A stretch of DNA of 64,000 bases, from NCBI GenBank assembly GCA_022695795.1, contig MU404196.1, forward strand, positions 9,451-73,450. Reading direction: 5' to 3'. Origin of the DNA: Biscogniauxia marginata (taxonomy: Eukaryota; Ascomycota; Sordariomycetes; Xylariales; Xylariaceae). Of the stretch, positions 118 to 59,236 are shown one piece after another (positions within the stretch are counted from its first letter, which is position 1; the number at the start of each line of letters is the position of its first letter). Under the pieces are notes generated by a model, which had not been told where the DNA came from, searched no databases, and worked only from the letters and a program-made list of their open reading frames with translations. The position numbers and the translations under genes are program-made.

Positions 118-158
118 TATAATATAATAAAAAGTAAAAAAATATTAAAATACTTTAT

Positions 159-634: not shown

Positions 635-710
635 TTTTAATAGCTCTTTAATTAGTACTTAATATTAATTTAAAAGAAAGGACTTTTAATTAAACCGTTT
701 TAAAATAAGT

Positions 711-6689: not shown

Positions 6690-7220
6690 AACGGCCTCGG
6701 AAGTAATTTTAACTTACTTAATTAAAGATTATTATTTAACTTAAAAACGTTTTTACTCTTTTTTTAAACGTTTTTGCTTTTTTAGTTTATTTAAATTTTA
6801 AAGATTATATTAAAGCATTTTTAAACCTTTCTTTTTAATAACTCTTTTTAACGATAAAGCCGTTTTATTCGAGTTATAATTTCGGTTATTTCTCGGTGAA
6901 GTCGTTTTAAGGCTTCCTCGGCTTAACGTTTTTATAAAAATAACCGCTTCTTTTTATGATTTAGATTTTAAAAAGAGCTAAAAAGAATTCTTATTTTATT
7001 ATATTAACGTTAATAAAAAACGCATTTATTACATTTCTTTGATATTTTAAACGACATTACACATTTTAAGTTATAATTAAAACAATAAAAATAAAGTATA
7101 ATATTAATATTAAAGCTTATTTAGTTAATTTAATTAATAAGCTTTTTATAACTTTGCTTTTAATTTTCATAACGACGCTTAATATTAAAATTAATAAATA
7201 TAAAAAAAAGACTTATTAAA
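6690..7220 (-). pseudogene. Antisense Zn2Cys6-like ORF relic, left element
   Basis: On the strand opposite to pol, between the chromodomain and the 3' LTR, a reading frame shows the spacing CX2CX6CX9CX2CX6C over 7001-7093. Positions 1 and 6 are TAT (Tyr), as expected if TGT/TGC was hit by RIP. After it comes a charged, Leu/Lys/Glu-rich stretch (about 6700-6960, including the word RLHREI) that looks like a coiled coil. Several stops interrupt it. The same arrangement is present in three other copies in this window. The overall boundaries are estimates. Confidence 0.65.
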
Positions 7221-23928: not shown

Positions 23929-25356
23929 TTAATGATGCTGCTGTATAGCGCACTTCTTCTCGAGCCATCTAGCAAGGTCTGTCGAGGGGATATCGATGGT
24001 CCTCCAGAATAAATCGGAGACCCATATGACGATAGGGAAATACAATGCAGTAGAGACCACGAAACTAACTGTGTAAGCCCAATACTCTTCCCGGCCAATA
24101 TGCTGCCAGCAAGCTTCTAACAGCCAGGCCCCGATGGTACGGTTTCCCAGACCGTGCACTAAATAAAGAGAAAAACTAATGCGACCAAGATAGCGGGCGG
24201 GTCGGGTCAGAAAAATCGACTGGACTGACGGCAGGAAGACCAGGGGACCGACGATCAGGATTGCGCTGACGGCCAACCAATAACGGCGGCGATACGAAGT
24301 GAACGGCCAAATATATCTTGACCACATATACCCAGGCGTCTTCGTGTTGTGGTCCCGTGGGTATCCTGAAAGAAAGGCGCCGACAACCAAAGTTAGAATA
24401 AGAAGCAGGTTGACCAGCTTGCTTCTCGGCGAGTTCGTTGGCTTCTCTAGCAGTACCTCAAGTTCAGCGAGGAGCATGCCGGAAATGAAAAGGGCCACGT
24501 CCCAGCGCCTATGTCCGAAGCAATGAATAATGAGCACTGTTTCGACGGCCAATCGGAACAAAGCTCGCGTTTGTGCTAGCCCAAGTACTAACAGGAAGAC
24601 GACCATCGACGCTCGGAATTCCACGGCGATCGACCATAGCTGTGGGTTGTAAAAACCGTTGAACTTGGCTTGCCAATCCCAGAGATTGGACTCTAGATCA
24701 AGGTACCCAAGGTAAGCAGCAAGCCCATGCTTAAAGGGTTTCCCATTGACCTCATCTGGAATGGGGATGATTTCGAGGTAGGCGCAGATGAAAGCTATCG
24801 TGCTGGACGCGAAAGCCGGGATAAACAAGCGAACCGCGCGGCGAAATGTAAGGGATGTAAGCCCAGAGAACAACTCCATATACTCCTGCCGGTGCATTCG
24901 TTGAATGAAGCGGTGTGATAGTACGAATCCCGAGATGACGAAAAACAAGGCCACCATCGCCGCGCCAGAATGGATAAGCCGGACGAAGGGCAGTAACCAG
25001 AACGATCTATTGTCCTGGTATCCCCATCCTGAGTTTACAGAAGGATACGATATATGACTCCAGTGGAGTATGAAGACGATGAGTGAAGCGACACCTCGAA
25101 CACCGTCGAGATATTCAGTCGCATGCCTTTTTCTCGGCAAACAACTTTGCTCTGCTGCATTACACGGCGGTGAAGACTTCCTCCCTAGGAAGCTTGGCTT
25201 CAAGAAGGCAAGACATCGCCAGATAACTCCACGAAACAAAAGAGACCGAAGGTCACTATGCCAGGCAGATGATCTTATATTTGTCAAGTTCTCTGAGGGT
25301 GGTTGGGGTAGGAGAGGGTCTTCATATTCCTTGAGGAAGGAGTTCGCGGCATACAT
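23929..25356 (-). CDS. Acyltransferase-3 family integral membrane protein
   Basis: Single-exon 475-residue protein of the acyltransferase-3 (OafA/NolL-like) family. These multi-span proteins move acyl groups, usually acetyl, onto sugars or small molecules. The family N-terminal signature is clear: YLDGVRGVASLIVFILHWSH at about residues 82-101, including the conserved Arg and His. It is followed by FFVISGFVLSHR and the Arg-rich loop FRRAVRLFIPAF. NPQLWSIAVEFRASMV and the terminal ARYLGRISFSLYLVHG are also typical. About ten hydrophobic helices are visible. An 80-residue cytosolic N-terminal extension precedes the domain, common in fungal members. The acceptor cannot be predicted. It lies beside P450, Stealth and FAD-oxidase genes, so a role in tailoring a metabolite or glycan is possible. 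Confidence 0.93.
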   Translation of the reverse strand: MYAANSFLKEYEDPLLPQPPSENLTNIRSSAWHSDLRSLLFRGVIWRCLAFLKPSFLGRKSSPPCNAAEQSCLPRKRHATEYLDGVRGVASLIVFILHWSHISYPSVNSGWGYQDNRSFWLLPFVRLIHSGAAMVALFFVISGFVLSHRFIQRMHRQEYMELFSGLTSLTFRRAVRLFIPAFASSTIAFICAYLEIIPIPDEVNGKPFKHGLAAYLGYLDLESNLWDWQAKFNGFYNPQLWSIAVEFRASMVVFLLVLGLAQTRALFRLAVETVLIIHCFGHRRWDVALFISGMLLAELEVLLEKPTNSPRSKLVNLLLILTLVVGAFLSGYPRDHNTKTPGYMWSRYIWPFTSYRRRYWLAVSAILIVGPLVFLPSVQSIFLTRPARYLGRISFSLYLVHGLGNRTIGAWLLEACWQHIGREEYWAYTVSFVVSTALYFPIVIWVSDLFWRTIDIPSTDLARWLEKKCAIQQHH

Positions 25357-27254
25357 GGCAGCGATTAATATCTATAATAATGCGTATCTCTCGCTAGGTA
25401 TCTTGAAAATATTACAAAAGCATGTAAGATCAAAAGGAGGTCAAGGCCCGTGAGTATCGAGATACCAATTTCATGGGAAAAATGAAAGAAATGAATATTT
25501 TAGCGTAAGAGGGGCACGTCAGGAAGTAAAATGCCTAGGCGTGCTACCGATGTGAATTCTAAGAAGACCAATGTTGTTGTTTTTAGCACTATAACAGTAG
25601 TATGATGGTATAGGTTGTTCATGTTGGTTATCCCAGGAGCTCTGTACGCGGATCTCAAAGTCATGGAGATATGCCGAAATGAGGGCATGAACCGAGCAGA
25701 TATACCACGCACTGTGCCCAAGATCCTTAACCTCTGGCTACGGAGAATTCAGGCTTGCCTAGCTTCTTCAAGCTTTTGCTTATTTGCAGATCTTAGCTAC
25801 GCTAAATTACAGATATAGGAGCTAGATGTAGACAGTTTTTTCTTTTAAGCCCTCACAGTATTTCTAGTATCTTGACCCAAATGGGATCGTTGCTGCACGA
25901 ACAAGACCTGTTTATTAGAAACTGAATCAAAAGGCTTGTGCTCTCACAAAGGCTTTGACTAGCTGACCAATCCATATCGGCCAAGTCTCAAGCTCATTTC
26001 ATTCACTTGCTCAGGATAATTCATGGGTCACCAACTACAGACCCGGCCATTTAGCTTGCCTCTTCTCTTCCCGTTTCCTCATTGCCTCCTTCCTATTGCA
26101 TTTCTTTTCATGTGATTACAAGAGACCAAATAATGACAACAACACGAAGTTACATACTGACATCATTCGAATCACCGTGGTGATACAAAGGTCGGCAACA
26201 CAAAGGGATAGGCAATGTGAGAAACCCAAGTAAGACATGCTGCTATTTAATCTCGATCTCAACTGCCAAGATTACACCTCCTCACAAGTCTGTTAGTGAG
26301 GTCCGAAAAGAAAAAGAAAAAAGAAGAAGAAGGAAAAAGCCAAGATGAAAGGCTGCCGCTGTCCCGGGCAAAGGAATTCCTCTCCTTGGTCACTTACGCA
26401 GAAACTATATAATTGATGTATTGCAATTCTAGCACCACACCTACAGGCGTCCTATTTAGTGCTGGCATGACAGTGCCGAACTTTTGTGCTATCTATTCCT
26501 GCCACTTTAATATATTCTAACTCGCACTAAACAATTACTGTACATGCCACTGTGATATTCTCGGTTGCGTTAGTGACGCCTGTGGTAATATGGCGGCACG
26601 ATTATGACCTAATTATAGGACCACGGCATAGAATACCTTGAAATACAAGACAGACTTTGTGGGTCCTGTAACCAAGGATGAGCTGCCCCTATTCTTTACC
26701 ATTTTATATAATCGACTGAACTGTCAAGTCACTCACGGAAAAGGGAAAGATAACTTCTCTTATGCCTGTGTCATACCATGTCTCCATTCATGAATACCAA
26801 CTAACCAAACTGCACTCTATATATCCCCGTCGAAGCCTGGGCCCGAAACTTCTAAAATTCTTTGCTTCATCCGTCCTAGTAGCTTGTAGCCCGGCCGACC
26901 TAATCTAAGTCGTCCTATCTTTACATTATCCTTTTTATAGAAGTGAGACGTCGACAAAACATCCACATTTGGTATGTGAACACGCGATCTACGTTCCTTA
27001 CGGCAAGTTAAACGTCACCAACTCCCTACTGCATCGACGACACACAAATGGAAAGAGACCCTTGAATGATATTTCTGTCAAATTGGAAAAGGTTTTATCA
27101 CTTGTTACATTCAAACTACAAGGGGACTTCTAAGGCAGATTGGAAAATCATACTAGTCATAACATCGAGCCCGGGCAAGGACGATTAACTCAAAAATGGT
27201 GAAGGAGAAAACCCACACCACCCAAGTCTGCCCTATTCTGACCATTTCACGACA
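25357..27254. other. Divergent intergenic region between acyltransferase and Stealth genes
   Basis: 1.9 kb separating two divergently transcribed genes, so it should hold both promoters. No gene is seen. It has an A/G-rich run at 26305-26345. CT-rich blocks and several TATATA words occur between 26800 and 26900. Confidence 0.6.
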
Positions 27255-29285
27255 ATGTCATCGCCGAGACCGCCTCGTCTCTATACGAAGATCCCAAGTT
27301 CTCCAATAGAACCGAGGAATATCCCCTCTCGCCGCATACGAAGAATTATCTGCTTAGTTGGCTTTCTTATAATAGTATGGTTGGTGGTCAACAAATGGGA
27401 GCCGGCGGAATTGACGACTGGACATTATCCGAGCTTCCAGCTAATGCGAAAGCCTTCCCCAGACAGTACGCGGGTACAATGGACTTCGGGCGGCGCAGTT
27501 ATACCAGCGATACGAGGCGGTGGACAAGAACATCCATCGGGGAAGGAAAGATTGAAATTTCACCACCAATTGCCTGATGTGGTCAGGATACCTTTTGGGG
27601 AGGCAGTGGAGGATGTTGAGCTCGATGGGTGGGAGGACGAATGGTTTTCTTCAGGCAACTACAACGTGGAGAAGAATGGCCCGCTAGCTGAGCCGAAAAT
27701 CGACTTCGTATATAACTGGGTTAACGGCTCAGATGAGGCCTTCAGGGATATCAGACATGTTTATGAGTTGGAATCTCCCCTCAACGATGAGGCCGGCAAG
27801 TGGATCTCGCAACATGGAATCAACCGCTATCGTGACTGGGATGAATTAAAATATTCCTTACGCAGCCTCGACGTTTATGCTAAGGGATTTATCAACAAGA
27901 TCCAGCTACTTGTCAACTCTGTTGGAAGTAATTTATATCGGACCGATGGGCATCATATGCATCCACAGCGCCCTTCCTGGCTTAGGGACGATGAAGCCAC
28001 CAATGAGCACGTTCAAGTTCTTAGCCACGAATCGTTCTTTCGTGACGAAGATAAGGAATGTCTCCCAACCTTTAATTCACTATCTATTGAATCTCAAATC
28101 TATATGACGCCTTCGTCAACTGATCAGCTCGTCGCTTTATCCGACGACATGTTCCTTGGCATGCCTCATGCTGCTTCGGACTTCTACTCTCCTCTGTTTG
28201 GTCCCACGATGGGCTTCAAGACCGACCATTATAATGTTAAGAATCTTGGCGGTAAAGATCAGATACCTTCTTTCGGTGAAAAGCCGTTCGTCTATTACAC
28301 GTCCTACTTACTAAACCATAGATTCGGTCAGCGTGATCGTCACGTGCAGGCTCATTTCGGTCATTCAGTTTCTCGTGCGGTAGTTCGCGAGGCAATGGCT
28401 TCTTTCCCGAAACCCTCGGCTAAAGGTGCTTGCGAACGGTTCCGTGGTGAATCCCGTTTTCAGATTTATCCCTGGTATGCGAGCTTCCATTACAGCATAG
28501 AGAGGTTCAGGGAAGCTCTCCTCTGGTCGTTTATTATGTCCCGCTCCGACGCCAACTCTGATGGCTACATCGACTGGACAGAACGACAACATCTGCTTGA
28601 CGCTGTCAAACCGGGTTGGCAGCAACTAGCGATCAAAGATCCTTCGAAGCCTGCACCTCAGCCTCAAGACCGGGACCGAATGTATTACAAGCTCCCTAGT
28701 ATCCTTCAAAAGGCAGGCTTGCAACCTCCCAGGGTCAATATTAACATCTTGTGGACGTCGCTTGATGGTCCTGAGATGACTCGTAATGTCAAATGCACGG
28801 ACTTTAGCATCGACAAGTGTCTTGGGGACTCTTTCGCCTCACCACTATCTGACTTGACTTCCCCCAACCCAGACTTCACAGCCTCTAACATCTTTTCCCG
28901 TCTATCTTTCCATCATCCAAAGTGCGGCGATTGCCTCATAAAGTTCCTTTTAGCCTCCGCACCTCGCGGCCTCGAGCCACTGCTCCCATCAAAGGACTCC
29001 AAGCATCGAGATCGAGAGATTGTCGTCAAAGCCTTGAAGAAATATCAGCATACGATTATCGATACGGACGTCATGAAGTTTGTCATGGTGAAGGACGCGG
29101 AGCAGGCCGAGACAGAATTGCTACAGCGGGCAGTCCAGAAGGGGAAGGCATTTGGTCAGTGGTGTCTAAATGATGATGTGATGACGGAGAATAGCGCTCA
29201 AGTCGATAAAGTAAAGAATGTAATGGGCCAGGTTTTCGAAGCCCTCTGGCCCGGGAGAGGAAGATGGGAGAAAGATGATATATAA
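27255..29285 (+). CDS. Stealth-family sugar-phosphate transferase with EF-hand loop
   Basis: Single-exon 676-residue type II membrane protein. A short basic N-terminus, one hydrophobic anchor (about residues 29-46, with ICLVGFLIIVWLVV) and a large, probably Golgi-lumenal domain. The Stealth regions appear in order: CR1 with IDFVYNWVNGSDEAF (about 149-163); CR2 with RDWDELKYSLRSLDVY (about 195) through FNSLSIES to LSDDMFLG (about 302); CR3-like HVQAHFGHSVSRAVVREAM; and a C-terminal CR4-like part. The family transfers hexose-1-phosphate from nucleotide sugars (animal GNPTAB, bacterial capsule transferases); fungal members are often annotated XptA-like. Between CR3 and CR4 lies a canonical 12-residue EF-hand loop, DANSDGYIDWTE (432-443), as also described for GNPTAB, suggesting calcium binding. 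The likely role is adding phosphodiester-linked sugar to glycans or glycoproteins; the acceptor is unknown. Confidence 0.92.
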   Translation: MSSPRPPRLYTKIPSSPIEPRNIPSRRIRRIICLVGFLIIVWLVVNKWEPAELTTGHYPSFQLMRKPSPDSTRVQWTSGGAVIPAIRGGGQEHPSGKERLKFHHQLPDVVRIPFGEAVEDVELDGWEDEWFSSGNYNVEKNGPLAEPKIDFVYNWVNGSDEAFRDIRHVYELESPLNDEAGKWISQHGINRYRDWDELKYSLRSLDVYAKGFINKIQLLVNSVGSNLYRTDGHHMHPQRPSWLRDDEATNEHVQVLSHESFFRDEDKECLPTFNSLSIESQIYMTPSSTDQLVALSDDMFLGMPHAASDFYSPLFGPTMGFKTDHYNVKNLGGKDQIPSFGEKPFVYYTSYLLNHRFGQRDRHVQAHFGHSVSRAVVREAMASFPKPSAKGACERFRGESRFQIYPWYASFHYSIERFREALLWSFIMSRSDANSDGYIDWTERQHLLDAVKPGWQQLAIKDPSKPAPQPQDRDRMYYKLPSILQKAGLQPPRVNINILWTSLDGPEMTRNVKCTDFSIDKCLGDSFASPLSDLTSPNPDFTASNIFSRLSFHHPKCGDCLIKFLLASAPRGLEPLLPSKDSKHRDREIVVKALKKYQHTIIDTDVMKFVMVKDAEQAETELLQRAVQKGKAFGQWCLNDDVMTENSAQVDKVKNVMGQVFEALWPGRGRWEKDDI

Positions 29286-34770: not shown

Positions 34771-36456
34771 GGTGTCGACGTGCTCGGCCTTTGACGGGTA
34801 CGGCGGGTGGCGTTCATCAGTTAGGGACTATTTTCACAATTACCTAAATCCCCCAAGACGAGGAACAGGAGATGAGGGGTGCAAATGCAAGGCTTAAAGC
34901 TGGTCCGCGCATGTGGCATGCGGCGTGTCCCCAAGAGCTGGCGAGTATTTATCAACCTGTCTTGGCCGAGGATGACATGGATTGACTTCCTCCTTATTCT
35001 CTAAGGAATGCATGGCATCTGCATGATGCAAGTAGTGTGTGGCATCGCCCACTTAGCCATCCATTCTATAATACCACCCACCATTAACTACTCATCAAGG
35101 TAGCAGCAGAAGGATCACGTAATCATATTTCACGCCGTAGGAGAACGGGGTCACGTCTCGCCATATTAGGGCCAGGCAAGCTAGACTGCTTCTTGCCCTC
35201 GCGATGATTGACGTAGCTTGGCAAGGCACTCTTGTCAGATCAGTTGCAGATACCCACAGTAGCTAGACTAAGCAGTAATCCACATCTTGCTAGTCTTGAA
35301 AGTTCAGGTCTACTTGATCGACATTCTTCACAATGCCTGATTCAATTATCGACGAATTGCAGAGCGAGCGTCGCATGCAGTCAGATTCAGTATCACGCGC
35401 TATTCGCCCTCCCCCGCCGGAACCGATACCACCCCTCCCTTCCCGAAGGCAGAGGAGAAGAGAAAGAATATGAAAAGAAGGATAAAACGCTCAGTATGTA
35501 TCATGTAGTCCGGCTTGGCTGAAGAATGTATCTACGCAAGTGCTATAATTACCCTACGGGTCTTTATCCATTTCCGTCACAGTGGCATTTTCAATATTAC
35601 CTACATATGTAGGTATTCAGCTCTGCCATAGCGATCCTATAATTTTTTACTTATTTGTAGCTTAAGTAGCCCAATCTGATCAGTAACCTAGACCTAGGTA
35701 ATGTAGGAATGAACAAGTACATTTGTTGTTACACTCAGGAGAAGAGTTGAAGTGCATGATGAATTGATAAAATAATATATTCGAAATATCTGGAAAGAAG
35801 AATATATATATAGGTACCTATTTATGACACGAGAAGATACTACAGGTAGGCTCTCCTATAGGAATGGTGGGCTCCGGGGAGGGAGGGGTGCGGAGTAAAC
35901 CATAAACGTTGGCAAGCCACGGACAGGGGAACAAATCCAACCCTAGGCAAGATTCCTGGCATCAGTTATTCGCTACCACGCGACAAAAGTTCCGCGCACA
36001 TGAATACAGCAGTGTAAGCCGCAGCGGGGCCATCAGACTCTTGACCACAACCCAACTAATATCAAATATCAACTCCTTCCGAGTCCAGCCCGCTTCAGCT
36101 CTCATAAGCCCGCGGAGTAGCGCCAACGCCTCATCTCCACGGCTGCCCGGTTGCCAGGCATGTTATGTGTATTGGTGATTACCTTCTGCTCTTCTCCCTG
36201 CGGTAGCCACTCACCAGCCATCACCGGCTAGCCTTCCCCTTACATTCCTGGCCCCCGGTCTTACGGCCGCCATGTGTTCGTATGCATTCATTTCTTCTCC
36301 CCTGGCTCTAGCGCCGTCCTGCCACGTGGGCCGGGGTGCTCAGCTGCATCGTCGACGACTTTGGATTTCTCATTTAGAGGAGGTTAAATCATCTGGAGCT
36401 TCAACCTTCATTCCATTCATACTACTTCTTAATTCCTTCGCTGCAGAGAGACAATC
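34771..36456. other. Divergent promoter region of rhodopsin-domain and FAD-oxidase genes
   Basis: 1.7 kb between divergent starts at 34770 and 36457. No gene is supportable. It includes CCTAGGTA/TAGGTACC words near 35690 and 35812, and a C/T-rich 5' leader region before 36457. Confidence 0.6.
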
Positions 36457-38196
36457 ATGAGTTCCCGTCACCTGATTGGTCTTGTGCAACTGCTCGCCCT
36501 CGGGGCTGCAGCTGCTCTCCGCGGCTGCAATGCCAATCTCTGTCGTTCCATTCCCGGCGACTCCTCTTGGCCGACCCGGAGCGAGTGGGACAGCTTGAAC
36601 CAATCTGTCTCCGGAAAGCTCATTGCCACCATCCCTATCGCTGCTCCTTGCCACGCTACTGCTGCCGTGTCTGGTCAATCTAACCTTAGTTCGCTGTTCA
36701 ACGAGGATGCATGCGAAGTATTGCGTAGTACTTGGTTCTTCCCCGAGACTCATCTGCCCTCTGCGTCCTCGCCTATGGCCTATCAGTTCACAAACAACAG
36801 CTGCAACCCCTTTTTAGACCCCGATACCTCATGCACCTTAGGGTATCACGTCGCATATACGATAAACGCAACTGAAGTTTCCGACATTCAAGCCGCTATC
36901 CGATTTGTTCAGAAGCATAATATCCGCCTTGTGATCCGGAACACTGGCCATTGTTATCTGGGCAAGTCTACGGGAGCACATGCTCTTGCTATATGGACTC
37001 GCCATATAAAGTCTCTTGACCTCGTCGAGGAATACAGCGGCACTAATTATACGGGTCCCGCCATCAAGATAGGCGCGGGCGTGGAGGGCCTCGAGGCTTA
37101 CGAGTTCGCACATTCGCATGGGCTCATGATTGTTGGGGGGAACGCCCCAACTGTAGGACTTGCTGGTGGATTTACCCAAGGCGGTGGCATTGGGCTTCTG
37201 TCTTCCAAGTTCGGGCTCAGCGCCGACCAGGTGCTTGAGTGGGAGGTTGTTACAGGCACTGGAAAGTTTGTCACAGCAAGCGCCCAGGAGAACCCTGATC
37301 TCTTCTGGGCCTTGCGCGGAGGAGGAGGGAGCACATATGGCGTCGTCGTCTCCATGACCGTCAAGGCGTTCCCAGAAACTTCCATTTCGGCAGCCTACAT
37401 GACGGTCATCAAGAACGGTACCAATGAGGATGCCCTCTATTCTTCTCTGGGCACGTTTTTGCAGTCGCTACCGGAATTGGTGGATGCTGGGGCCTGGGTG
37501 GTTTTCGTAGCTACGCCCCAGGTCTTCCTGATCATGCCAGCCATGGCTCCTGGGCTACACCCGACCGAGCTTGACGGGTACCTTCAGCCATTTATGGACA
37601 AAATGGACCAAGCTGGGCTAGTATATGATTATTCCTCGGCAGAATATCCCGACTTCTTGGCAGGTTATCGTCACAATTCCGCAACGTCGACCTGGAACGT
37701 TTCAGACAATAATCTCGGTGGCCGATTAATCCCCCGTGAACTTGTGAACGATAATAGCAGTACAGAGGCCTTGGTGGAGGCCATTCGATACATAAGCTCT
37801 GAGACGATCATGTCCGGGGTGGCTTTCAATGTCGCGAATGGTGTTGCTTCGGCAGATGATGTAGCGGTCAATCCTTACTTCCGCAAAACACTCTTTAGCG
37901 CGACTCTCGGCACGGCGATCGATTACACTAACTTTGACCTGAACAAGGCAGCGCAAGATAAGCTGACGTATGACCTGGTCCCCAAACTGAAGGCGCTCAC
38001 TCCAAATGGCGCGGCGTATTTAAATGAGGCCGACTTCCAGGAGCCTGACTTCCAGACAACTTTCTACGGGGATCATTACGCCAAGCTGCTGTCGATTAAA
38101 CAAACCTACGACCCCCAAGACATCTTCTACGCCAGAACAGCAGTCGGAAGCGACCGTTGGCAAGAAGGGCAAGATGGAAGACTGTGCAAGAAATAA
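36457..38196 (+). CDS. Secreted BBE-type FAD-linked oxidase
   Basis: Single-exon 579-residue flavoprotein of the FAD_binding_4 + BBE (berberine-bridge / 6-hydroxy-D-nicotine oxidase-like) group. These enzymes use covalently bound FAD and O2 to oxidise alcohols, amines or metabolite scaffolds. A hydrophobic signal peptide (about residues 1-20) and many N-x-S/T sites point to secretion. The FAD domain starts at about 128. The likely flavin-attaching His is His165 in IRNTGHCYLG; GGFTQGGGIGLLSSKFGLSA and WALRGGGGSTYGVV follow. A second cysteinyl FAD link is not evident, since the usual Cys position is not Cys. The C-terminal BBE segment (about 517-567) ends DIFYARTAVGSDRW. Length is normal and no stop or frameshift is seen. 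The substrate is unknown; nearby P450 and acyltransferase genes make a tailoring role plausible. Confidence 0.94.
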   Translation: MSSRHLIGLVQLLALGAAAALRGCNANLCRSIPGDSSWPTRSEWDSLNQSVSGKLIATIPIAAPCHATAAVSGQSNLSSLFNEDACEVLRSTWFFPETHLPSASSPMAYQFTNNSCNPFLDPDTSCTLGYHVAYTINATEVSDIQAAIRFVQKHNIRLVIRNTGHCYLGKSTGAHALAIWTRHIKSLDLVEEYSGTNYTGPAIKIGAGVEGLEAYEFAHSHGLMIVGGNAPTVGLAGGFTQGGGIGLLSSKFGLSADQVLEWEVVTGTGKFVTASAQENPDLFWALRGGGGSTYGVVVSMTVKAFPETSISAAYMTVIKNGTNEDALYSSLGTFLQSLPELVDAGAWVVFVATPQVFLIMPAMAPGLHPTELDGYLQPFMDKMDQAGLVYDYSSAEYPDFLAGYRHNSATSTWNVSDNNLGGRLIPRELVNDNSSTEALVEAIRYISSETIMSGVAFNVANGVASADDVAVNPYFRKTLFSATLGTAIDYTNFDLNKAAQDKLTYDLVPKLKALTPNGAAYLNEADFQEPDFQTTFYGDHYAKLLSIKQTYDPQDIFYARTAVGSDRWQEGQDGRLCKK

Positions 38197-44195: not shown

Positions 44196-44847
44196 AATTA
44201 TAAAGAATTATAATGTTTATAATAAAACTAAAGCATTACAATATAAATTATATAAATTACTATAACTAACTTAGATACCTAAAAAAACATAGTATATAAT
44301 TATATGGGATTTCGTAATAAAACTCCTTAAATTAAAAAATCCTGTTATAAAAGTACCTTATAACAACATATAAGTAATTATTAATAAATTCATGAAATAT
44401 ATTTACTTTTTACCATTTAATAAGTTAAACATAGCAAAATAATTGGTTTTTGGTTTTTTAAAAAAGTACGTTAATAAACTAGCTTAATAAAACGAATAAA
44501 AGTTAAATAAAAGTTATTTATAGCGTATTATTCCTAGTTAAATGAATAAATAAAAAAACTAAATTAAATAATAAAATAATATCTCCGAAACTATATTAAC
44601 TAAGAAATTAATAACTTAAATAGCATATAACACTTCGATTAACGAGAATATAAAAATGTCATTATATAAAGTAATATATAATTAAAAAGCGGAAATTTAA
44701 AAACAACTAATTAAACTTATAAAAGCCTTAAAAGCAGGGGTATTATTCGAAAAAATCTAAGTAATATAATTACGATTATAAAAAGAATTATAATTTATTT
44801 AAAATAAAATAACAAAGTATTATAATAAAAAAAGAATTAAGGGATGT
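44196..44847 (+). pseudogene. Older pol (integrase-region) fragment, left part
   Basis: Aligns with the left retrotransposon at about 5440-6185 (shared words aattataaagaattataatg, caacatataagtaattatta and others) in plus orientation. It ends at the 5-bp target site aggga where the younger element is inserted, and resumes at 52478. Heavily RIP-mutated. Confidence 0.8.
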
Positions 44848-45351
44848 GACGAACCTCCCTGTGTGTTCCTAGTCAGCTGACTTCACAGGTAAGTACGTAC
44901 TAGGTTTTCTTAATTTAAAGGTAATAGTAGGTTAAGATTGGTTTAATTGATTTAGAATGTTATGTTCGTTAAAGAGGTTTTAAAGTACTTTCATTATAAT
45001 ATTAAAAAGTGACTATAGTTTTAGATTAATAGCTAAAAAACTAGAATAAATAATTAAAAATAAAAGAAATCTTATTCTTCTTATATTAAATTTCCTTCTG
45101 GGATAATACCTAACATCTTTAATTATTCTCTCTTATTCTTTATAAGAATAACAAAGAATATAATCATTCTTTCTCACTCTTTGTAAGAGCAATAGAGAAT
45201 ATAATTATTCTCTCTCGTTCTTTGTAAGAGTAATAAAGAATATAATTATTCTCTTTTATTCTTTGTGAGAGTTATAGAGAATGTTATTATATGTTACGTA
45301 ACCCGTGTTTATATGACCCTCCACCTTTCTAACCCTTGTTAATTCGTAACA
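44848..45351 (-). repeat. 3' LTR of the nested element
   Basis: Starts TGTGACGAACC and ends ATTCGTAACA in plus coordinates. Contains a four-unit tandem array (45121-45283). The sequence just inside (45352-45367) is ttatttctctctttta, a polypurine tract on the element's sense strand, as expected beside a 3' LTR. Confidence 0.9.
45121..45283. repeat. Four 41-bp tandem repeats in the LTR
   Basis: Four copies of a 41-base unit carrying ttattctctctc, then attctttgtaagag and caacagagaata. Each junction, agagaatataattattctct, is nearly palindromic. The same array is at 52242-52403 in the other LTR. On the sense strand it lies in the upstream (U3-like) half. Confidence 0.8.
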
Positions 45352-45417
45352 TTATTTCTCTCTTTTAATTTGTTTTGTCTTTAAAACGCTTTAAGTTAAT
45401 ACTCACTATTCTTTATT

Positions 45418-45990
45418 ATGTTTTTAGGTAGAATAATTAAACGTTCTTAACTAGATTCGAAAAAGAGTTTCACTAAATATCGTTATAAGCTGGTTTTTGC
45501 GATTACCGAGTTTAGTTTCGAAGTTATACCGTGTTCTCGTTATTTCGATCGAGGCTTTACTTATAAAATGTTAAAAAGTCGCAAAAAGTGTTAGAATTAT
45601 ATTAAAGCAAACATTCTTTAATATAATGGAAATCGCATTTCTTTTAATTCCCTAAAAAACATTCGTTTAGAAAAACTACGTATTAATAGGGAGAAATATA
45701 TAGCTTTTAAGGAGCACCGACGTATTCTTTAAAGCCTTTAAAAGCTCTCGGCTTGTATATCCCGCTTAAATTAATAATCCAAGTTTCTTCGCGAGCGGGG
45801 AGTAAAATTTATTTAGCGTAAACTTAAAAACTTGGATAAATTAAAAGAGTAAAAGCTTTTTAAAGCAAAATAATAACGTCTTAATAAAGAATAGCAGCGT
45901 ATAAAGGAATCGCTACGTCAACTTGAATCTAAGTAAGGCGTGCTTGCTTCGGGGGTTTTCCCCTCCTTTAACTAGTCTCGACTAGGTTAC
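45418..45990 (+). pseudogene. Antisense Zn2Cys6-like + coiled-coil ORF, best-preserved copy
   Basis: Runs opposite to the element's own genes, between the 3' LTR and the chromodomain end of pol. An in-frame ATG at 45418 lies 38 codons before a six-cysteine pattern CX2CX6CX8CX2CX7C at 45532-45624. Cys 1 and 4 are intact (IPCSR and RKKC); Cys 2, 3, 5 and 6 are TAT. Downstream is a Lys/Arg/Leu/Glu/Gln-rich region of about 100 codons that includes IRLEKLRINREKYIAFKEHR, FLRERGVKF and KESLRQLESK, with stops mostly at expected Gln positions. A zinc cluster followed by a coiled coil is the layout of GAL4-type regulators. Function is unknown. The 3' end is approximate. Confidence 0.7.
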
Positions 45991-46019
45991 GAACCAGGTT
46001 CTTAAATCCCTCTAAGCGA

Positions 46020-49000
46020 TCTGGGTTTTAGCGGTGAAAGTTCTTAAGTTTATTTATCAAATTCTTTAAATGTTTAAGTGGTTTTTAAGTGTTCTCTTTT
46101 GGTGGGTAGCCCTTTTACTTAACAAAATATTGTAGTTAACTTTCGATTCGTCTCGAATTTAATATCTTTTTTACTTCGTATTTATTAGGGTTTTCTTTAA
46201 ATTTTAGTTGGTTTTTTAGTATAACGTTATTTAGTACTGGTTTTAAAAGTGAAATATGAAATATAGGATATATTTTAAATCTTTTTAATAGTGTTAATTT
46301 ATAATTAATTTTCGAAATAACCTTTTTAATTTTATATAGTCCTAATTTCTTAAATTTAAGTTTTTTGCTAAGTCGCTTTGTTTTAATTTAAGGTGTTTTT
46401 AATGTTACGTCTTATCATTAACAAAGTAAGTAAATCATGTTTCTTCTTTTAAGAATTAGTCCTTTAATTCTTTTTTTATTATAATACTTTATTATTTTAT
46501 TTTAAATAAACTATAATTTTTTTTGTAGCCGTTATTATATTACTTAAATCTTTTCGGATAGTACTTTTATTCTCGGGGCCTCTGTTTCGACTCTTGGTGC
46601 TTCCGTGAGTTTAATTGGTTATCTTTAAACTTCCGCTTTTTACTTGTATATTGCCTTGTGTAGTGATATTTTCATGTTTTCGTTAATCGAAATGTTATAT
46701 GTTATTTAAGCTATTAATAATAACTTTACTTAGTTATTTATTTCTTAGTTAATATAACTTCGTAAATATTATTTCATTATTTAGTTTAGTTTTTTTGTTT
46801 ACCCGTTTATTTAGGGGTAATACATTATAAACAACTTTTATTTAATTCCTATTCGTTTTATTAGGCTGGTTCAAAATTTTGACGTAAATAACTTGTCTCT
46901 ATTTAAAATAACGCGTTTTAATAGCCTATATTTACTAACGTATTCTCTTAAAAAGTTAAAAACTAATTATTCTGCTATGCTCGATTCGTTAAATAGTAAG
47001 AAATAGGCGTATTTCGTGAGTCTATTAACAATTACCCATATGTTGTTATAATGTATTCCTATAGTAAGATCTTTTAACTTTAAAAGTTTCACTACAAAGT
47101 CCTATGCAATTATATTCCATGCTTTGTCAGGTATTTAAGTTAATTGTAATAATTTATATAGTTTATATCGTAATGCTTTAGCCTTATTATATATGTTATA
47201 ATTCTTCATAATTCTTTTAATTGTTTATCATATTCCTAGAAAGTCGAATTCTTTTTGAAGTCGTTTTATTGTTTTGAAAATCCCTTGGTAGCTATGTAGA
47301 GAATATTTATGAAATTCTTTAACGAATTCGTTTTGTACTTATTCTAATACGTATACTTTTTCCTTGTACGAGAGAAGTTCGTCGCTAGATCCTTATTAAA
47401 ACTATAATTATTTTTCTTTTTAATTGTAATTTTCCTTAAACCGTTATTTCTAGTTTCTTATTTTAATTCGCATGTAAATTAATATAATTAATTCGTTATT
47501 TTGTTGTTTAAATATTTAAATATCTCTTTTGTTAATTTTTAATTTATAATCTCCCTTTTTATTAAGAAGATCTATTTAGATATTTTCCTTTCCCCTGATA
47601 TATTAGATTCTAAAATTGAATTTAAACAAAAAGATTATTTAACGCTTATGTCTTTAATTAAGTGTTTGTGTTATTATAAATCGTGTAAGGTTTTTATGGT
47701 TTAAGTAAATATCGATAGGTTCCTTAGTTCCGCTAAGCCATGATTCTTATTCTTCTAGTGCTTTAATGATTATTAATAGTTCCTTGTCGTAAATTTAATA
47801 GTTTAATTTAACACTATATAATGCTTTGAATAGGTACGCAACTAGGTATCATTTTTTATTATTTTTTAGTTGCTTTAAGACTGCTTTAATAGCGAAATTT
47901 AAGGCGTTTATCCTTAGTCGTTTCTTTTTATTTTCGTTTAGAAGTTTATATATAACCTCACTAGTTATAACTTCCTTTAGCTGCTAAAAAGCCTGTTTAG
48001 CTTCTTTAGTGAAATGGAAAGCCTCTCTTGTTTTTACTAGGGTAGTTAATTCTGTTAATAGTTTAGTAATACGCTTAAAATCTTTAATGAGTTGTTTAAT
48101 ATAATTAATAAAGCCAAGAAATACGCGTATATTTATAACACTCCTAGGTTCTAGTTAATCCTTAATTACTGCTATTTTTCCCTTTTAAATGCGGATTTCT
48201 TCTAGACTTATTATAAACCCTAAATAGTTTAGTTTCTTGATATGCTATTTACTTTTAATTAGATGAACGAGTAGATTCGCCTTCTCCAGGGTTTTCAATA
48301 CTTGCTTTATATGTTTCTTATGCTTCTTCTCGTTTTTTAAGTAAATTAGTATATCATTTAAGTAAACAAATACAAATTTGTTTAGAAACTTGCGAAAAAC
48401 TATTATAATTATATATTAAAATATAACGAGTATATTAATAAATTTAAATAACATAACTTTATACTTATAATATCTATATATTATTTAAAAAGCTATATAT
48501 TATTTATGTTTTTTAGTCATTTTAATTATATAATATTTATTACGAAGGTTTAATATTATAAAGATTTAAGCTTTACTAATTTATCCTTTTATAAGTTTCA
48601 TTAGTGGTAACGAGTATTCGTTTTTCTTGGTTATTTTATTGAGGTGTCGGTAATTGATCACTCGTCGCCACACTAGGTTTTCTTCTTTATCGACACGTTA
48701 TTTTCCGTTTTTGTCGACTTTGGGTACCATAATTGCCGGGTATTTTAACGAGGATTCTAACTCTCGAATATATCCCTTATCTAGATCCTCTTAAATTCCC
48801 TTTTATAGTGCTTTTTATTTTTCTTGATTTATAAAATATATTAAGAATAATTTTGGTTATTTTCTTTTTTTAAAGTGGATTTAGTGATTTCATTAGCTAT
48901 GTTTTAGTAATTCTTTTTTTATTTTATTTTTAAATAATTTATAGAAATGAAGGTACTTACGCGGTACTCTTTTCGTTAAATTTTTAGGTTTAGTTACTCG

Positions 49001-51888
49001 AATTATATAAGCGATATGTTTCGTTTTTATATTTGTTTCTTTGGAGTTACTTGTGGTACTTATCTCGTAATTTATAGTGGTTAACTCCTCTTATTTTTAA
49101 TTTTAATGAAGCGTGTTTATCTCGAAATTTATTTGTGAATTACCTTTTTTAAGTTAATTCATTCTTAAGATTATATCGTGATTTAATATGTATATAATGT
49201 TAAGGATGACTTATTTAGAATGCCTTTAGATAGTTATCAAGAGAGGAATTATTTCTTTTAACACCTTACTATTCTCGTAACTAAATATGTTTCCTTTAAA
49301 GTTTTATAGTTTGTACGGATTTTATTTATATACTTATAGTATTTTGTCTTTTTAAGTTACCTTTATTGAAATATAACTTTTATTTACTCCTAAATTTATT
49401 AGGGCTTTATATTTTTTTTTATTATACTTAACTCTGGTTATAATAGTGTTATTAAGTCTCGATTGGACTTTATATAAGGACTTATTATTTATAGCTTCTC
49501 GCTGCTTTACTAGCGAGAGCCTTTGCCGTTTTTTGGTTTTCTACGTCTCTTCTCCTTTAGTTTTTTTTTAATTGTTATAACCCGGATGTCCTTTTATTTT
49601 TAGGCTTTCATAAAAGCGTGTTTCCAGCAATTATTACTTAAATAGTCTCTTTAATTACCTTTCACGTAATAAGGGGTGAGAGGTTTATCTTTTATATAAA
49701 ACCTTACATATTAAAACTTTAATTTTTTTTCGAGAGCCTTTTTATAACTTAAGTTTGTTTTATTAACTCGGAATTTCTTAAAGTTTTAAATTATCCTCGA
49801 ATAAAATAAATAATTATTAAGTTTATTTGCTAAAGGTATCTCGATGTCTTTCCTTAAATTTATATTAATTTTTAAAAGTTTTCCTTTTTTTTTGAGGTAT
49901 GTTTTAATAATTCGTTTATAGCCCTGTTTAGTCGCACGTGTTTTTGCTTGTTATTTTGTTAAGTATTTCCTTATAAAACTAAATAAACCGGTATCGTATT
50001 TAGTTCGTTTTTTGAGTTATTATGGAAAATATAATCCCTTTTATAATTCCCATAATTCTTCCTTAATCTCGTTTTCTTCGAAACCTGCTTCAAGTAAGTC
50101 GTGTACATCGCATGGTACCGAGGTATAACACATGCAACCCTTGGCAATTATTTCGTTACTTCTTTCGGAATCGAGGTGAAGATAACATGCTCGAGAAAAA
50201 TGTGGCTAACGTGGGGTATTATCGCAAATGCATTTATTTTCTTCCGTGTCGTCATTTTTTAGTTTTTGAGAATAATAGCCGGCTTTATCTTTAAAACTTT
50301 TGTGTACTTAATAGGCGTTATTAATATAAAAGCTTTAATAAACATTATAACTATTATTTATACAAAACCTTTAATTTAAGCTATTATGCTGGCTTTTTCC
50401 TTAATAGGTTTCGCATTTGTCGTTTTTATAGTGGTTTTAATGTAAATCACTATGGTTTGACTTAATTCCTAAGTCGTATTTTAACTTGTAGTTATCACAC
50501 ATGTATAATAATTCGCCTTCGTTATATCTTTATTTAGCTTATTTTAATGTAAAATATCCTAGATATAAGTGGTTATTCTTTGAATAGTCTTTGCGGTTAA
50601 CTTAATAAGATTTATAAACTCCTTTTATAAAGGTCTCCTTAATCTTTTCTGCTTTAATAATACCGATAATAAATACTTAGTTTATTTCTTCGTTATTTTT
50701 AAATTAAACCCTTGCCTCGGCGACTTTTTTCTCGGGTTAAAGAATCCCTCTTATTCTTAGTTCCTGTTTCTTAAGACTTCGGTATTCGTTTTTATAATAT
50801 CCTTTCTTTCTGCAATTAAAACACTTAATAGTTAATTTATTTCGTTTTTTTTGTTCCTTTTAAACAACGTTGATTTTAATAAGGTTTAACTTAGTTTTAG
50901 TGCTTTTCCTGGTTTTAATACCGCTTTTGTGATTTCCTCTTTTTAGCTAATCGCTATTCCTTCGTTATACCGTCTTTTTCTTTTTAAGGTACCGTTTAAA
51001 GTTCTCGTTATTAATGGTAATTGCCATTATAACGTAATTATTAAACTTTTTTAGGTTCCTTTCTTTATATAGGTTTATTTTATATAACTTATTCTTTATA
51101 TGGTTTTTTAATTCTTGATAAAACAAGTAATATAGGCTTTTAATAGGTAGTTATAATTAACTTGCGAGTTTCTTGAACTTAATAGCGTAATTTAAAGCCT
51201 TTTTATTTTGTCATAGTTTATGAAGTCGAGCTTCGGCTTGTTACTTGAGGATTAAATTACCGAATATAAACCTGAGTTGTTTTTTAAACTCCTTATAATT
51301 CTTGAAAACTTTTTTCGTGTTTTTTTGGGCGTTTAATCCGTTTTCTAGATGATTTTTTAATACTAGTTAAAACCAGGTTAAAGCGGTTCCGGCGAGGAGC
51401 TGGGATATCGTGAAAACCTTTTATTCCTTAGTAGTAATTGTTTTATAATAGAATCGTAAGTAGGTTTTAGCCTAAATTAAAAATCTTTTTAAATCGCTTG
51501 ATTTATTATATTTGCTAGGTGTAATTAGTTTAAAACCCTTTACGTCGGGGGTTATTATATTATTTTCGTTATTTGAGTTATTAAGGTCGCTATCGTTTAA
51601 GGGTGGTTACTTATCTTTAAGAGGTAGAAGTCGTTTTGCTTATTTGTTTTCTTTTTTAAGTATTTCTTTTTTCTCCTTTTCTTCTTCCTTAAATGATTTT
51701 TTTTGCTGGGCTTTTAAAATGTCCTCTTATGACTCTTTTTTAGCTATAACTATAATGAACTTTTATATTAGTTCTTTTAAACCTTTTAATTGTACCATAA
51801 AAAGACTTAAAGTTTTCGTTTAAGAGCTTGTTAATTGTTATTCTTTTATTTATTTATTTTTTTGTTGCTTTTTAGTTTTAGGGGGCAT
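46020..51888 (-). pseudogene. gag-pol of the nested element
   Basis: The gag start is ATG at 51888 (MPPKTKKQQK), followed by stops. The zinc knuckle at 50783-50823 keeps Cys 1, Cys 2 (CFNC) and has Tyr at the His and last Cys. The RT box Tyr-Leu-Asn-Asp at 48353-48364 sits in FVFVY..ILIYLKNEKK. The chromodomain-like end at about 46030-46135 keeps KGYPPKENT and KPLKHLKNLI with a stop at the expected Trp. Order and spacing match the left element. Protease, RNase H and integrase are presumably present but not marked individually. Confidence 0.85.
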
Positions 51889-51965: not shown

Positions 51966-52472
51966 TGTGACGAACCTCCCTATATGTTCCTAGTTAGCTG
52001 ACTTCATAGGTAAGTACGTACTAGGTTTTCTTGATTTGAAGGTAATAATGGGTTAAGATTAGTTTAATTGATTTAGAATGTTATGTTCGTTAAAGAGGTT
52101 TCAAAGTACTTTCATTATAATATTAAAAAGTGACTATAGTTTTAGATTAATAATTAAGGAACTAGAATAAATAACTAAAAACAAGAGAAATCTTATCTTT
52201 TTTATATTAAATTTCCTTTTGGGATAATACTTAATATCCTTAATTATTCTCTCTCATTCTTTGTAAGAGCAACAGAGAATATAATTATTCTTTCTCACTC
52301 TTTATAAAAGCAATAGAGAATATAACTATTCTCTCTCGTTCTTTGTGAGAGTAACAGAGAATATAATTATTCTCTCTTATTCTTTGTGAGAGCCACAGAG
52401 AATGCTATTATATGTCACATGACCCGTGTTCACATGACCCTCCACCTTTCCAACCCCTGTTGGTTCGTAACA
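51966..52472 (-). repeat. 5' LTR of the nested element
   Basis: 507 bp, starts TGTGACGAACC and ends GGTTCGTAACA in plus coordinates; the two ends are near-perfect inverted repeats of 11 bases. It keeps more C/G than its partner LTR. It contains the 4 x 41-bp array at 52242-52403 and a TCACATGACC / TTCACATGACC pair. Confidence 0.92.
52242..52403. repeat. Four 41-bp tandem repeats in the 5' LTR
   Basis: Same array as in the partner LTR. Units differ by transitions only in most positions. The half-units (attctctctc .. gagagtaacagagaat) can pair with each other, so each unit could fold as a hairpin. Confidence 0.8.
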
Positions 52473-52477: not shown

Positions 52478-53382
52478 CTAATTTTTAAGAGAAGAAATAT
52501 AGTTTATTTATTTCGTTAATAACAAAGCGTAATAACAAAAACGCCTTAAATTAAAATAAAACGGCTTAATAAAAAACTTAAGTTTAAAAAATTAAGACTA
52601 TATAAAATCAAGAAAGTTATCTCGAATATTAATTATAAATTAAAATTATTAAAAGAATCTAGAATATATTTAGTTTTTTATATATTGTTATTAAAATTAA
52701 TATTAAAAAACGCCTCGTTAAAAACCTGAAACGAGATTAAAAAAAAACTAAATAAATACGAGATAAAAAAATACTAAATTTAAAAAGGGTTAATAATTAA
52801 TTATAATATTTAGTTAAATAAAAAAGGTATTTATTAAAAGAAAATATATAAAAACTATTTAAGTACTTAATAAACTTAAAAGACGCGTTTAATAAGTTTT
52901 ATCGATAAAACCTAGATTAACTAAAAAGGCCTGGAAGTTAAAATCTTAATTTAAGAAAAATAAGTCGAAAAAGGGAACAATCTTAAAAATAACTTTAGTT
53001 TAATCGGCTAAGAATTATTATTTTAAGTAAAGGCGTTTTTACTTTTTCTTTAAACGTTTTTATTTTTTTAACTTTAGTTTTTCGAGTTTTTTTATAAAAG
53101 AAAAACCACGTTTTAACATTTTTAAACCCCTTTTTTATAAATACTTTTTTTGTTTACAAAAATAAGTAAAACGACTAGCGAGGGCTTAAAGCTCCTTTTC
53201 CGCTTTGCGATACTTGTTAGTAATACGATTTTTCTCGCGATTAAGATCCGCTAAATTAGACATTTTGATACTAAAACCGTCGTAATGATTACGAGCTTTA
53301 ACCGCATAATAAAAATATATTTTAAATTAAAACATTATAAAGTAACGAAAATCCATTTTAAAATAATAGGAATAAGGAAATA
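52478..53382 (+). pseudogene. Older pol fragment, right part, with chromodomain and antisense ORF
   Basis: Continues the fragment 44196-44847 exactly after the target site. It matches the left element from about 6190 onward. The chromodomain-like region is at about 52740-52940. On the minus strand, 53282-53374 holds the Zn2Cys6-like pattern CX2CX6CX8CX2CX7C with all six positions now Tyr codons. It is followed by a charged coiled-coil-like stretch (NLADLNREKNRITNKYRKAE) down to about 53000. This is the most heavily altered of the four antisense copies. Confidence 0.75.
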
Positions 53383-56730: not shown

Positions 56731-57483
56731 TATGACGAACCTCCTTGTGTATTCCTAGTTAATTAACTTCACAAGTAAATATGTACTGGGTTTTCTTAAT
56801 TTAAAGGTAATAGTGGATTAAGATTAGTTCAAGTGATTTATAATATTTTATTCGTTAAAGAGATTTCAAGGTATTTTCATTATAATGTTAAAAAGTAATT
56901 ATAATCTTAGATTAATAACTAAAAAACGAGAAACTAATTATATAAGAAATTTTAATTTATTTATATTTTTTTCTTTTATATAAAACAATTAAATCGGTGA
57001 ATCGCTCGTTACCCACTTATAATTCATCGAATTACCTTAAATTAATAAATCGCTTGTTATTTATTCTTGATTTACCGAATCACCTTTGTTTATATAACTT
57101 GTACGTGAAATCTATAACATTATTCTTCCCTTTTAAGGATCTTTGTCTTGAAGATAAAAAGGTCCTAAAAACCTTATTTATTATTCTTAATTTCCTTAAT
57201 TTTATTTTCTTTGTTATGTTTTACTATATAACTAAAAACCGAAAAGAAGTTATTTCGCGACGTATTGAGAAACTAATAAAAAATAGAGTTACTTTTTTAA
57301 AACTAATTATTTTAAACGGAAAAAAAGAAATGGCTTGTTTTTTTTGCGAATAATTTAAGAAGAAGTATATAGTTTTTAAAGACTTAAGCCATTGTTTGGA
57401 ATATATTCGTTTAAAACGCATTTATTATGACGTTTTTGGTATTTCGCGTAAAGGTGTAGTTAAAATTATTAAGTAATTTTAAA

Positions 57484-57787
57484 AAGTTAAAAAAGCTATA
57501 AATAAAGCGGTAATAACTATAAATAAAGCGGTAATAACTATAAATAAAGCGGTAATAACTATAAATAAAGCGGTAATAACTATAAATAAAGCGGTNNNNN
57601 NNNNNNNNNNNNNNNNNNNNNNNNNNNNNNNNNNNNNNNNNNNNNNNNNNNNNNNNNNNNNNNNNNNNNNNNNNNNNNNNNNNNNNNNNACTATAAATAA
57701 AGCGGTAATAACTATAAATAAAGCGGTAATAACTATAAATAAAGCGGTAATAACTATAAATAAAGCGGTAATAACTATAAATAAAAC
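57484..57787. repeat. 21-bp minisatellite containing the assembly gap
   Basis: Head-to-tail copies of a 21-base unit (ataaataaagcggt plus aataact): five before and five after the gap, the last with an altered end (aaaacgcgtcg). The unit length is three times seven, keeping the antisense frame. The copies are nearly identical although the surrounding DNA is heavily mutated. Confidence 0.9.
57596..57689. other. Assembly gap (94 N)
   Basis: N run inside the 21-bp repeat. The 94-base size does not keep the 21-base phase between the flanking units (the phase would need 88 or 109), so the size is probably an estimate and the true repeat number is unknown. Confidence 0.95.
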
Positions 57788-59236
57788 GCGTCGTTTTTAA
57801 ACATAAAAAAGTCTTTAATTTAAAAAGCTATAAAGAATAATTACTTAAAGTTTTAATTTTATTAAGAAATTAAAGCGTGTTAAGTTTAAGGAGGCGGAGG
57901 AGCAATAACGCTTTAATAAAGAGTTATAACGTAAAGAGGGAGGGCCGTGTTAATCTGGACTTGTTTAAGACTTGTTTATTACGTAGATTTTCCCTTTTTT
58001 TTTTAACGATTTAAACCTCGACGTTTAGGCCCTCTTAGCCGGTCTGGATTCTGGCGGTAGAAGTTTTCAATTTCCTTTATTAAGTTCTTTAAATGCTTAA
58101 ATAGTTCCTAAGTGTTTTTTTTAGTGGGTAACCTTTTTATTTAAAAAAATATTATAATTAATTTTTAACTCGTTTTAAATTTAATATTTTTTCTACTTTG
58201 TATTTATTAGGGTTTTCTTTAAATTTTAATTGGTTTTTTAGTAAGGCGTTTTTTAGTGTTAGTTTTAAAAGTGAAACATGAAATATAAGATGTACTTTAA
58301 ATCTTTTTAGTAGTACTAGTTTATAATTGATTTTCGAAATAATCTTTTTAATTTTATATAGTTTTAATTTAAGGTATTTTTAATGTTACGCCTTGTTATT
58401 AGCAGAGTAAGTAAATTATGTCTTTTTTTTTAAGAATTAATCCCTTAATTTTTTTTGTTATAATATTTTGTTATTTTATTTTGAATAAATTATAATTCTT
58501 TTTATAGTCGTTATTGTACTACTTGGATTTTTTTGGATAATACTTTTGCTTTCGGGGCTTTTATTTCGATTTTTAGTGTTTTTATGAGTTTAATTAGTTG
58601 TTTTTGGATTTCCGCTTTTTACTTATATATTGCCTCGTATAATAACATTTTTATGTCCTTATTAATCGAAGTGTTATATGTTATTTAGGTTATTAGTAGT
58701 AATTTTACTTAATTATTTATTTCCTAGTTAATATAGCTTCGTAGATATTGTTTTATTATTTAGTTTAGTTTTTTTATTTATTCGTTTATTTAGGGATAAT
58801 ACGTTATAAATAATTTTTGTTTGATTTTTATTCGTTTTATTAGGTTAATTTAAAATTTTAAAGTGAATAATTTATCTTTATTTAAAATAATGCGTTTTAG
58901 TAATTTATGTTTATTAATATATTTTCTTAGGAAACTAAAGGTTAATTGTTTTGTTGTGCTTAATTCGTTAAATAGTAAGAAGTAGGCGTATTTTGTGAGT
59001 TTATTAACAATTACCTATATATTGTTATAAGGTACTCCTATGGTGGGATTTTTTAACTTAGGAAGTTTTATTACGAAATCTTATATAATTATATGCTATG
59101 CTTTGTTAGGTATTTAAGTTAGTTATAATAATTTATATAGTTTATATTGTGATGTTTTAACCTTATTATAAATGTTGTAATTCTTTATAATTCTTTTAAT
59201 TATTTATCGTATTCCTAGAAAATTAAATTCTTTTTA

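Follow-up and report, generated by a model that had tools for sequence, protein, structure and literature searches.

A 64,000-nucleotide stretch of Biscogniauxia marginata DNA (the window; G000:C142:9451-73450 in the 45.3-Mb genome that was searched) carries a Ty3/gypsy retrotransposon in which an additional gene lies antisense to pol, between the end of pol and the 3' long terminal repeat (LTR). The gene encodes a protein of about 190-230 amino acids, in which a divergent Zn2Cys6 segment is followed by a predicted long helix and then by a C-terminal tail, and it is exchanged: as judged by comparing its genomic copies, the gene belongs with the adjoining unique 3' (U3) half of the LTR to one block, and this block varies between elements with near-identical pol. 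An antisense gene at this place is not new, since the accessible parts of the literature describe brtn of the Boty element; the swapping behaviour appeared in none of the paper titles and abstract beginnings covered.

An antisense gene of the Zn2Cys6 type

The element of the window lies on the minus strand between the two LTRs given in Table 1, and its pol has been broken by repeat-induced point mutation (RIP). With stops written as X, pieces of this pol matched the Pfam families RVT_1, RT_RNaseH, RT_RNaseH_2 and SH3_Tf2-1 on the minus strand; Integrase_H2C2 reached 25.2 bits (cut-off 25.5), the integrase core was not matched, and Chromo was recognised in L050, a less decayed copy. The order reverse transcriptase, RNase H, integrase and chromodomain is that of a Ty3/gypsy chromodomain element, as the initial annotation had proposed.

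The antisense frame starts with an ATG located 66 bp from the 3' LTR, on its internal side. The initial annotation had this start right and ended the frame too early, at 45990: by analogy with the 230-residue frame of L050, it is read here as running on to a stop at 46075-46077. As the pol stop occupies 45881-45883, the two genes overlap tail to tail over the last 197 bp of the antisense frame. The six-cysteine segment is about 256 bp clear of pol, which rules out constraint from pol on this segment.

All four stretches of six Cys or Tyr codons in the window read as first described, with the spacing CX2CX6CX8CX2CX7C in three copies and CX2CX6CX9CX2CX6C in the copy at 7001, and each has a pol end on the opposite strand beside it. 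Decay is uneven, as the 53282 copy has six Tyr and no Cys and the 7001 copy two Tyr and four Cys. In Neurospora, RIP prefers C-to-T changes in CA, and the decay of Cys codons (TGY to TAY) fits G-to-A in TG, the complement of such changes. Tyr codons are frequent in AT-rich RIPped DNA, so that a chance pattern, or a by-product of pol coding, could be suspected. However, the two spacing patterns, which were picked after the copies had been seen, together occur four times in 32 kb of AT-rich window DNA, exactly at the four noted places, whereas 60 first-order Markov simulations gave 0.03 on average and never more than 1. This rules out a chance pattern and, together with the distance of the segment from pol and the existence of stop-free copies and 36 homologues, leaves the whole explanation with a negligible probability.

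A DNA search of the genome gave at least 45 matches (40 of 78 candidates scored). These include 20 close copies, with 79-100% identity across at least 422 of 471 bases, of which 17 hold the frame throughout and three (L013, L017 and L020) shift; many stop positions are shared among them. A protein search gave at least 150 matches (150 of 190 candidates scored), some of them two pieces of one copy, and 149 of the 150 carry stops. When a database protein served as query, two of the 103 matches were stop-free, L050 and L061. In L050, the G+C content of the antisense gene is about 50%, and five of the six positions are Cys; the third is Tyr, where Cys is present in L053, of the same type, and in L036, of type A. 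L061 has all six Cys, spaced X9/X6 as in the 7001 copy, from which it differs by 2 transversions in 116 codons. Apart from the one Tyr of L050, loss of the Cys codons from non-RIPped copies, which the initial annotation had named as evidence against a gene, was therefore not seen. All 40 loci examined, comprising L031-L060 as the top-scoring protein matches and L062-L071 as a selection made to cover the types (L061 excluded), have the end of pol tail to tail with the antisense gene on the other strand. L061 itself is rearranged: its antisense gene (106-705, plus strand) overlaps a frame called gag-like by eye (401-856, minus strand) and not pol, which seems to have been lost between the two frames.

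Broken readings proved of little use as queries, with no match among 1,483 candidates in a protein database search with 12 of them and no Zn_clus up to E 10 when the same readings were compared with Pfam. Further database searches returned first two proteins and then 36, which form one family with the two stop-free copies. Names were obtained for 10 of the 36 (from Apiospora, Corynascus, Neoarthrinium, Cordyceps, Thyridium and Fusarium), all 'hypothetical' or 'uncharacterized', with stop-free proteins from Corynascus similis, Apiospora rasikravindrae and Thyridium curvatum among them; a taxonomy look-up placed four of the names in the Sordariomycetes, to which the remaining two genera belong too. 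Together with the RIP-like decay, these relatives point to a fungal host of the element. No Pfam domain is precomputed for any of the 36. The six Cys are kept in 35 of them, the exception, P0036, being without the segment. In an alignment of 37 rows, Cys occupies the six positions 37, 36, 35, 36, 36 and 36 times, and the exceptions are gaps from P0036 and the single Tyr of L050. The spacing is CX2CX6CX8CX2CX6C in 33 rows; one row has X9, one has X11 between Cys2 and Cys3, and two are unmatched, P0036 for its missing segment and L050 for its Tyr at Cys3.

The Zn(2)-Cys(6) cluster has the spacing CX2CX6CX5-12CX2CX6-8C, and the six-cysteine spacing of the family agrees with that of PF00172. Zn_clus was matched by 19 of 20 isolated Cys segments, the best being member 1 (21.7 bits, cut-off 21), and by 5 of 10 whole proteins at E <= 1, with 12.0-18.1 bits (same cut-off). 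The AlphaFold2 model of P0001 predicts a long helix (residues 76-145) behind the Cys segment, where the initial annotation had described a coiled-coil-like region. The likeness to fungal Zn(2)-Cys(6) regulators such as GAL4, PUT3, LAC9 and HAP1 therefore lies in six Cys at a permitted spacing, a long helix (here predicted) behind them, and profile matches that are weak but consistent. In contrast to those regulators, the Pfam score is borderline, the basic loop between Cys2 and Cys3 is reduced (0 to 4 K/R, mostly 2), and the protein is only about 190-230 residues long and encoded by a retroelement. The homologues, the Cys alignment and the profile matches nevertheless identify a real antisense gene of a divergent Zn2Cys6 type, for which pol offers no explanation. 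Six of the proteins (P0021, P0023, P0024, P0028, P0033 and P0034) have an extra hydrophobic stretch, located at the same point behind the Cys segment in each, that looks like a retained intron.

Because RIP yields transitions only, transversions were counted at each codon position in the part of the antisense frame not shared with pol, and their distribution indicates that purifying selection has acted on the frame. Seven representatives (types A, B, B2, F and H and two of type C, with D and E left out; types are defined below) give 21 non-independent pairs, and in every one of these position 2 has the fewest transversions. Position 3 has more than position 1 in 17 pairs, the same number in two and fewer in two; in 11 pairs the three positions differ significantly at the 0.05 level. 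The counts at positions 1, 2 and 3 range from cases such as L050-L051 (17, 15 and 45; p 1.7e-5) to cases such as L033-L050 (32, 19 and 32; p 0.13). When D and E are included, all 15 type means have their minimum at position 2, three of them with p < 0.05. For the 40-codon Cys segment taken by itself, the minimum is at position 2 in 7 of 15 and p < 0.05 is reached in none, so that selection, which the initial annotation had wanted tested on this frame, holds for the whole unique frame and is not significant for the Cys segment by itself; constraint on the Cys themselves follows from their being kept in the protein alignment. The strip upstream of the gene shows no codon-position bias in four comparisons (p 0.64-0.97, about 160 sites each), and a fifth has zero transversions. 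The pol frame, taken as a positive control, provides at most 10 transversions in four of five comparisons, and in L059 the flank becomes other sequence.

Exchange of the gene together with the U3 half of the LTR

The copies were grouped by their antisense gene into types A (L031-L049, the window copy being L033), B (L050, L052-L058 and L060), B2 (L051, L059, L064 and L065), C (L061, the 7001 copy and their relatives L068 and L071), D (53282), E (57336), F (L062, L063, L066 and L067) and H (L069 and L070). In the compared pairs of different type whose pol ends are 0.4-1.8% apart, transversions in the gene strip amount to 15-28% of sites; this strip reaches up to the pol end and, in L062-L071, takes in as much as about 40 bp of leader. 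Thus, L033 and L050 differ at 2/492 sites of the pol end and 78/436 of the gene, and L070 and L071 at 5/444 and 117/418. Within the window, the copies at 7001 and 53282 have pol ends near to each other (4/220) and very different antisense genes (126/537). No contrast between body and gene is claimed for E, nor for D or the 7001 copy against the rest, because their pol ends are 5-10% apart.

The limits of the block emerge from longer comparisons. Fitted breakpoints against L050 fall at 672-685 in five type A copies, around the pol stop (678-680), and at 647 and 620 in two B2 copies, 30-60 bp before that stop. In one pair, the only one in which gag was compared, a whole type B copy and the window element differ by 17 transversions in 5,935 sites (a bin sum) across gag-pol and an outer LTR part; they differ at 4/225 sites in the outer 3' LTR and at 73/448 in the strip from U3 to the gene. 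Relative to L033, seven B and two B2 copies are 4-8% apart in the outer LTR (type A copies among themselves, 0.4-2.2%), 8-31% in the inner LTR, leader and gene, and 0.3-0.7% in pol, except for L060. The pol strip of L060 differs from that of L033 at 18/694 sites, the remaining type B copies at 2-4.

Other sources of this contrast were considered. RIP is ruled out as the cause of the between-type differences, the counts being confined to transversions. Long divergence of whole elements is ruled out by the 17/5,935 transversions for the pair compared end to end and, for the remaining types compared, by the pol ends alone. Homogenisation of pol alone is less likely, given that L051 has the cassette of L064 and L065 (0/386 sites each) and yet its pol end resembles that of L033 (3/504) more than theirs (8/441 and 11/468), small as these counts are.

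The U3 part of the block has type-specific features of its own, and types A, B and B2 are each seen to go with their own U3 repeats. About 130-315 bp upstream of the antisense ATG lies a tandem array whose unit length depends on the type. Of 17 type A loci, 12 have units of 41 bp (or 82); all eight type B loci have 50-bp units (55 bp in one), and two of three type B2 loci have units of 40 bp. Within type C, units of 44 and 45 bp occur in L061 and the 7001 copy and no array in L075; none was found at this U3 place in F, H, D and E (one locus each). In the same zone, the word ATTCTY is followed by its inverse RAGAAT. The gap between them is 13 in 14 of the 17 type A loci, most of which also have one of 23; all eight type B loci have gaps of 13 and 24, and all three type B2 loci have gaps of 12 and 22. 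The un-RIPped U3 of L050, which is cut by the contig end, reads ATTCTC-N13-GAGAAT. No such pair at a gap of 0-30 occurs in seven loci of types C, D, E, F and H, where the U3 of type C has single half-site words, nor in the outer part of the strips of all 35 loci. Repeat units and copies are non-independent, and the three arrays may descend from one; the evidence is that arrays whose units differ in length all keep the word pair, at a spacing specific to the type.

A candidate regulator of its own element

The reading preferred here, to which a probability of roughly 0.55 is assigned, is that the protein is a dimeric regulator acting on the U3 of its own element, with a candidate site that would travel together with the gene. 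Transcription of the antisense gene would come from the 3' LTR side, because the ATG lies so close to the LTR. The protein would dimerise via its predicted helix, as GAL4-type proteins do, and the dimer may bind the inverted half-sites ATTCTY N12-13 RAGAAT as candidate sites in U3. Once bound, it would determine transcription of the element that encodes it, and a role as limiting autoregulator is more likely than one as activator. Control of the element's own transcription, already suggested in the initial annotation, would now have a candidate site. Template switching during reverse transcription would generate chimaeras, and since regulator and site must match, the two would move jointly in them. 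The protein type, the candidate binding site and the natural experiment of different cassettes on the same body make a regulatory role directly testable.

Among the alternatives, the most probable is an action after transcription, in which the protein would tether the integration complex to chromatin or aid nuclear import and its varied Cys domains would reflect varied targets. Proteins with a Zn2Cys6 segment and a coil are nuclear and DNA-binding by type, the element also carries a chromodomain, and a nuclear role has been suggested for plant antisense open reading frames in the accessible part of PMC7264820. This alternative is nevertheless unlikely, as it leaves U3 and the type-specific repeats in the variable block unexplained. 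It is rather less likely still that the exchange is real and functionless, with adjacent 3'-end sequence shuffled by recombination and the U3 repeats being neutral minisatellites. Neighbourhood by itself predicts co-transfer, and arrays or pairs are absent in some loci and types; but the gene itself is constrained, and one inverted pair recurs in three U3 arrays of differing unit length, for which common descent is possible.

The high diversity of the gene beside a near-constant pol might also suggest an arms race, in which the protein counters a host defence such as RIP, silencing or a nuclear restriction factor. This is improbable in view of the purifying bias across the whole unique frame and of the co-varying U3 repeats, which it does not explain; moreover, 149 of 150 matches carry stops regardless. 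Finally, the antisense transcript rather than the protein could matter, through double-stranded RNA, silencing or interference with the 3' ends of pol mRNA. The genes are convergent and overlapping, and a double-stranded RNA idea has been raised for plant elements (PMC7264820, in the part available), but RNA pairing needs neither the constraint on codon positions nor six Cys in 35 of 36 proteins, which makes a secondary role of the protein similarly improbable.

A tentative and unlikely extension of the regulator reading, drawn by analogy, is that the block may serve as an identity cassette of antisense regulator and U3 operator repeats, traded by template switching among lineages of one gag-pol body. 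Each type would then be an 'immunity group' that limits its own copies and not those of other types, much as heteroimmune phages exchange repressor and operators, and the spacing of the one shared half-site (13/23, 13/24 or 12/22) might set specificity as it does for GAL4-family dimers. If so, retrotransposons would sort themselves, as phages and plasmids are known to do, into regulatory groups that can be exchanged. Lambdoid phage immunity regions, in which a regulator is swapped together with its sites, and HBZ of human T-cell leukaemia virus type 1 (HTLV-1), an antisense regulator expressed from the 3' LTR, are analogies only and imply no kinship.

With regard to known systems, the closest is brtn of Boty-like elements; there too, as far as the accessible sources tell, a fungal Ty3/gypsy element has a single extra gene that runs antisense between pol and the 3' LTR, and the likeness is one of position and orientation. 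The original description of BRTN reportedly included a GAL4-like Zn2Cys6 domain. The initial annotation knew of no described fungal Zn2Cys6 case, a view that is not supported in that form, given the published antisense gene brtn of Boty in Botrytis cinerea and Sclerotinia (Zhao et al. 2011, as cited in the accessible parts of PMC7264820, PMC8365987 and PMC4227169). A Monilinia transcript matches both a truncated Pol and BRTN, as overlap would give (PMC5987419, in part). The parts of the brtn literature available contain no mention of exchange or of co-varying U3 repeats, and the titles and abstract beginnings covered by a literature search yielded neither an antisense Zn2Cys6 gene nor its exchange in fungal elements; PMC7014384, PMC3158057 and PMC4039746, as far as accessible, hold nothing bearing on the antisense gene. 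The plant Ty3/gypsy antisense frames (Grande gene23, RIRE2 and Retand) are alike in position and orientation and differ in their hosts, and the available part of PMC7264820 names no Zn2Cys6 domain for them and states the function of antisense extra genes in LTR retrotransposons as unknown.

Features of the window and of the stop-free copies

Table 1. Coordinates of the features discussed (window positions unless a contig is given)
Feature	Position	Strand	Remarks
Antisense frame	45418..46077	+	type A; RIP-broken; 219 codons + stop; locus L033
Six-Cys (Zn2Cys6-like) segment	45532..45624	+	Cys or Tyr at six positions
Long-helix (coiled-coil-like) part	45646..45870	+	approximate; aligned to AlphaFold2 helix 76-145 of P0001
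Tail-to-tail overlap of antisense frame and pol end	45881..46077		
pol	45881..49540	-	RIP-broken, single-frame reading; RVT_1, RT_RNaseH, Integrase_H2C2, SH3_Tf2-1, chromodomain end
Exchange block	45070..45880		U3 half of LTR, leader, unique antisense gene part; approximate, LTR limit ~45070 to 45248
3' LTR	44845..45351		TGTGACGAAC...TTCGTAACA; edges by eye
5' LTR, same element	51966..52472		edges by eye; far edge extrapolated by two bases
Tandem array in U3 of 3' LTR	45120..45290		41 bp x 4.2; type A; ATTCTY-N13/N23-RAGAAT inverted pairs
Tandem array in 5' LTR	52241..52403		41 bp; same as in 3' LTR
Second window copy	7001..7093	-	type C; X9/X6 spacing; type shared with stop-free L061
Third window copy	53282..53374	-	type D
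Fourth window copy	57336..57428	+	type E
L050, stop-free copy	G000:C118:1-2266		at contig end
L061, stop-free copy	G000:C2:903600-904900		

The frame of the fourth window copy enters a 21-bp tandem repeat (57496-57788) that holds an N run, marking an assembly gap. Between 9000 and 41000, the window contains a gene island of about 35-54% G+C amid RIPped blocks of 10-30%, with genes for a Stealth-like protein (27189-29285), an acyltransferase (23929-25371) and a FAD/BBE oxidoreductase (36433-38196).
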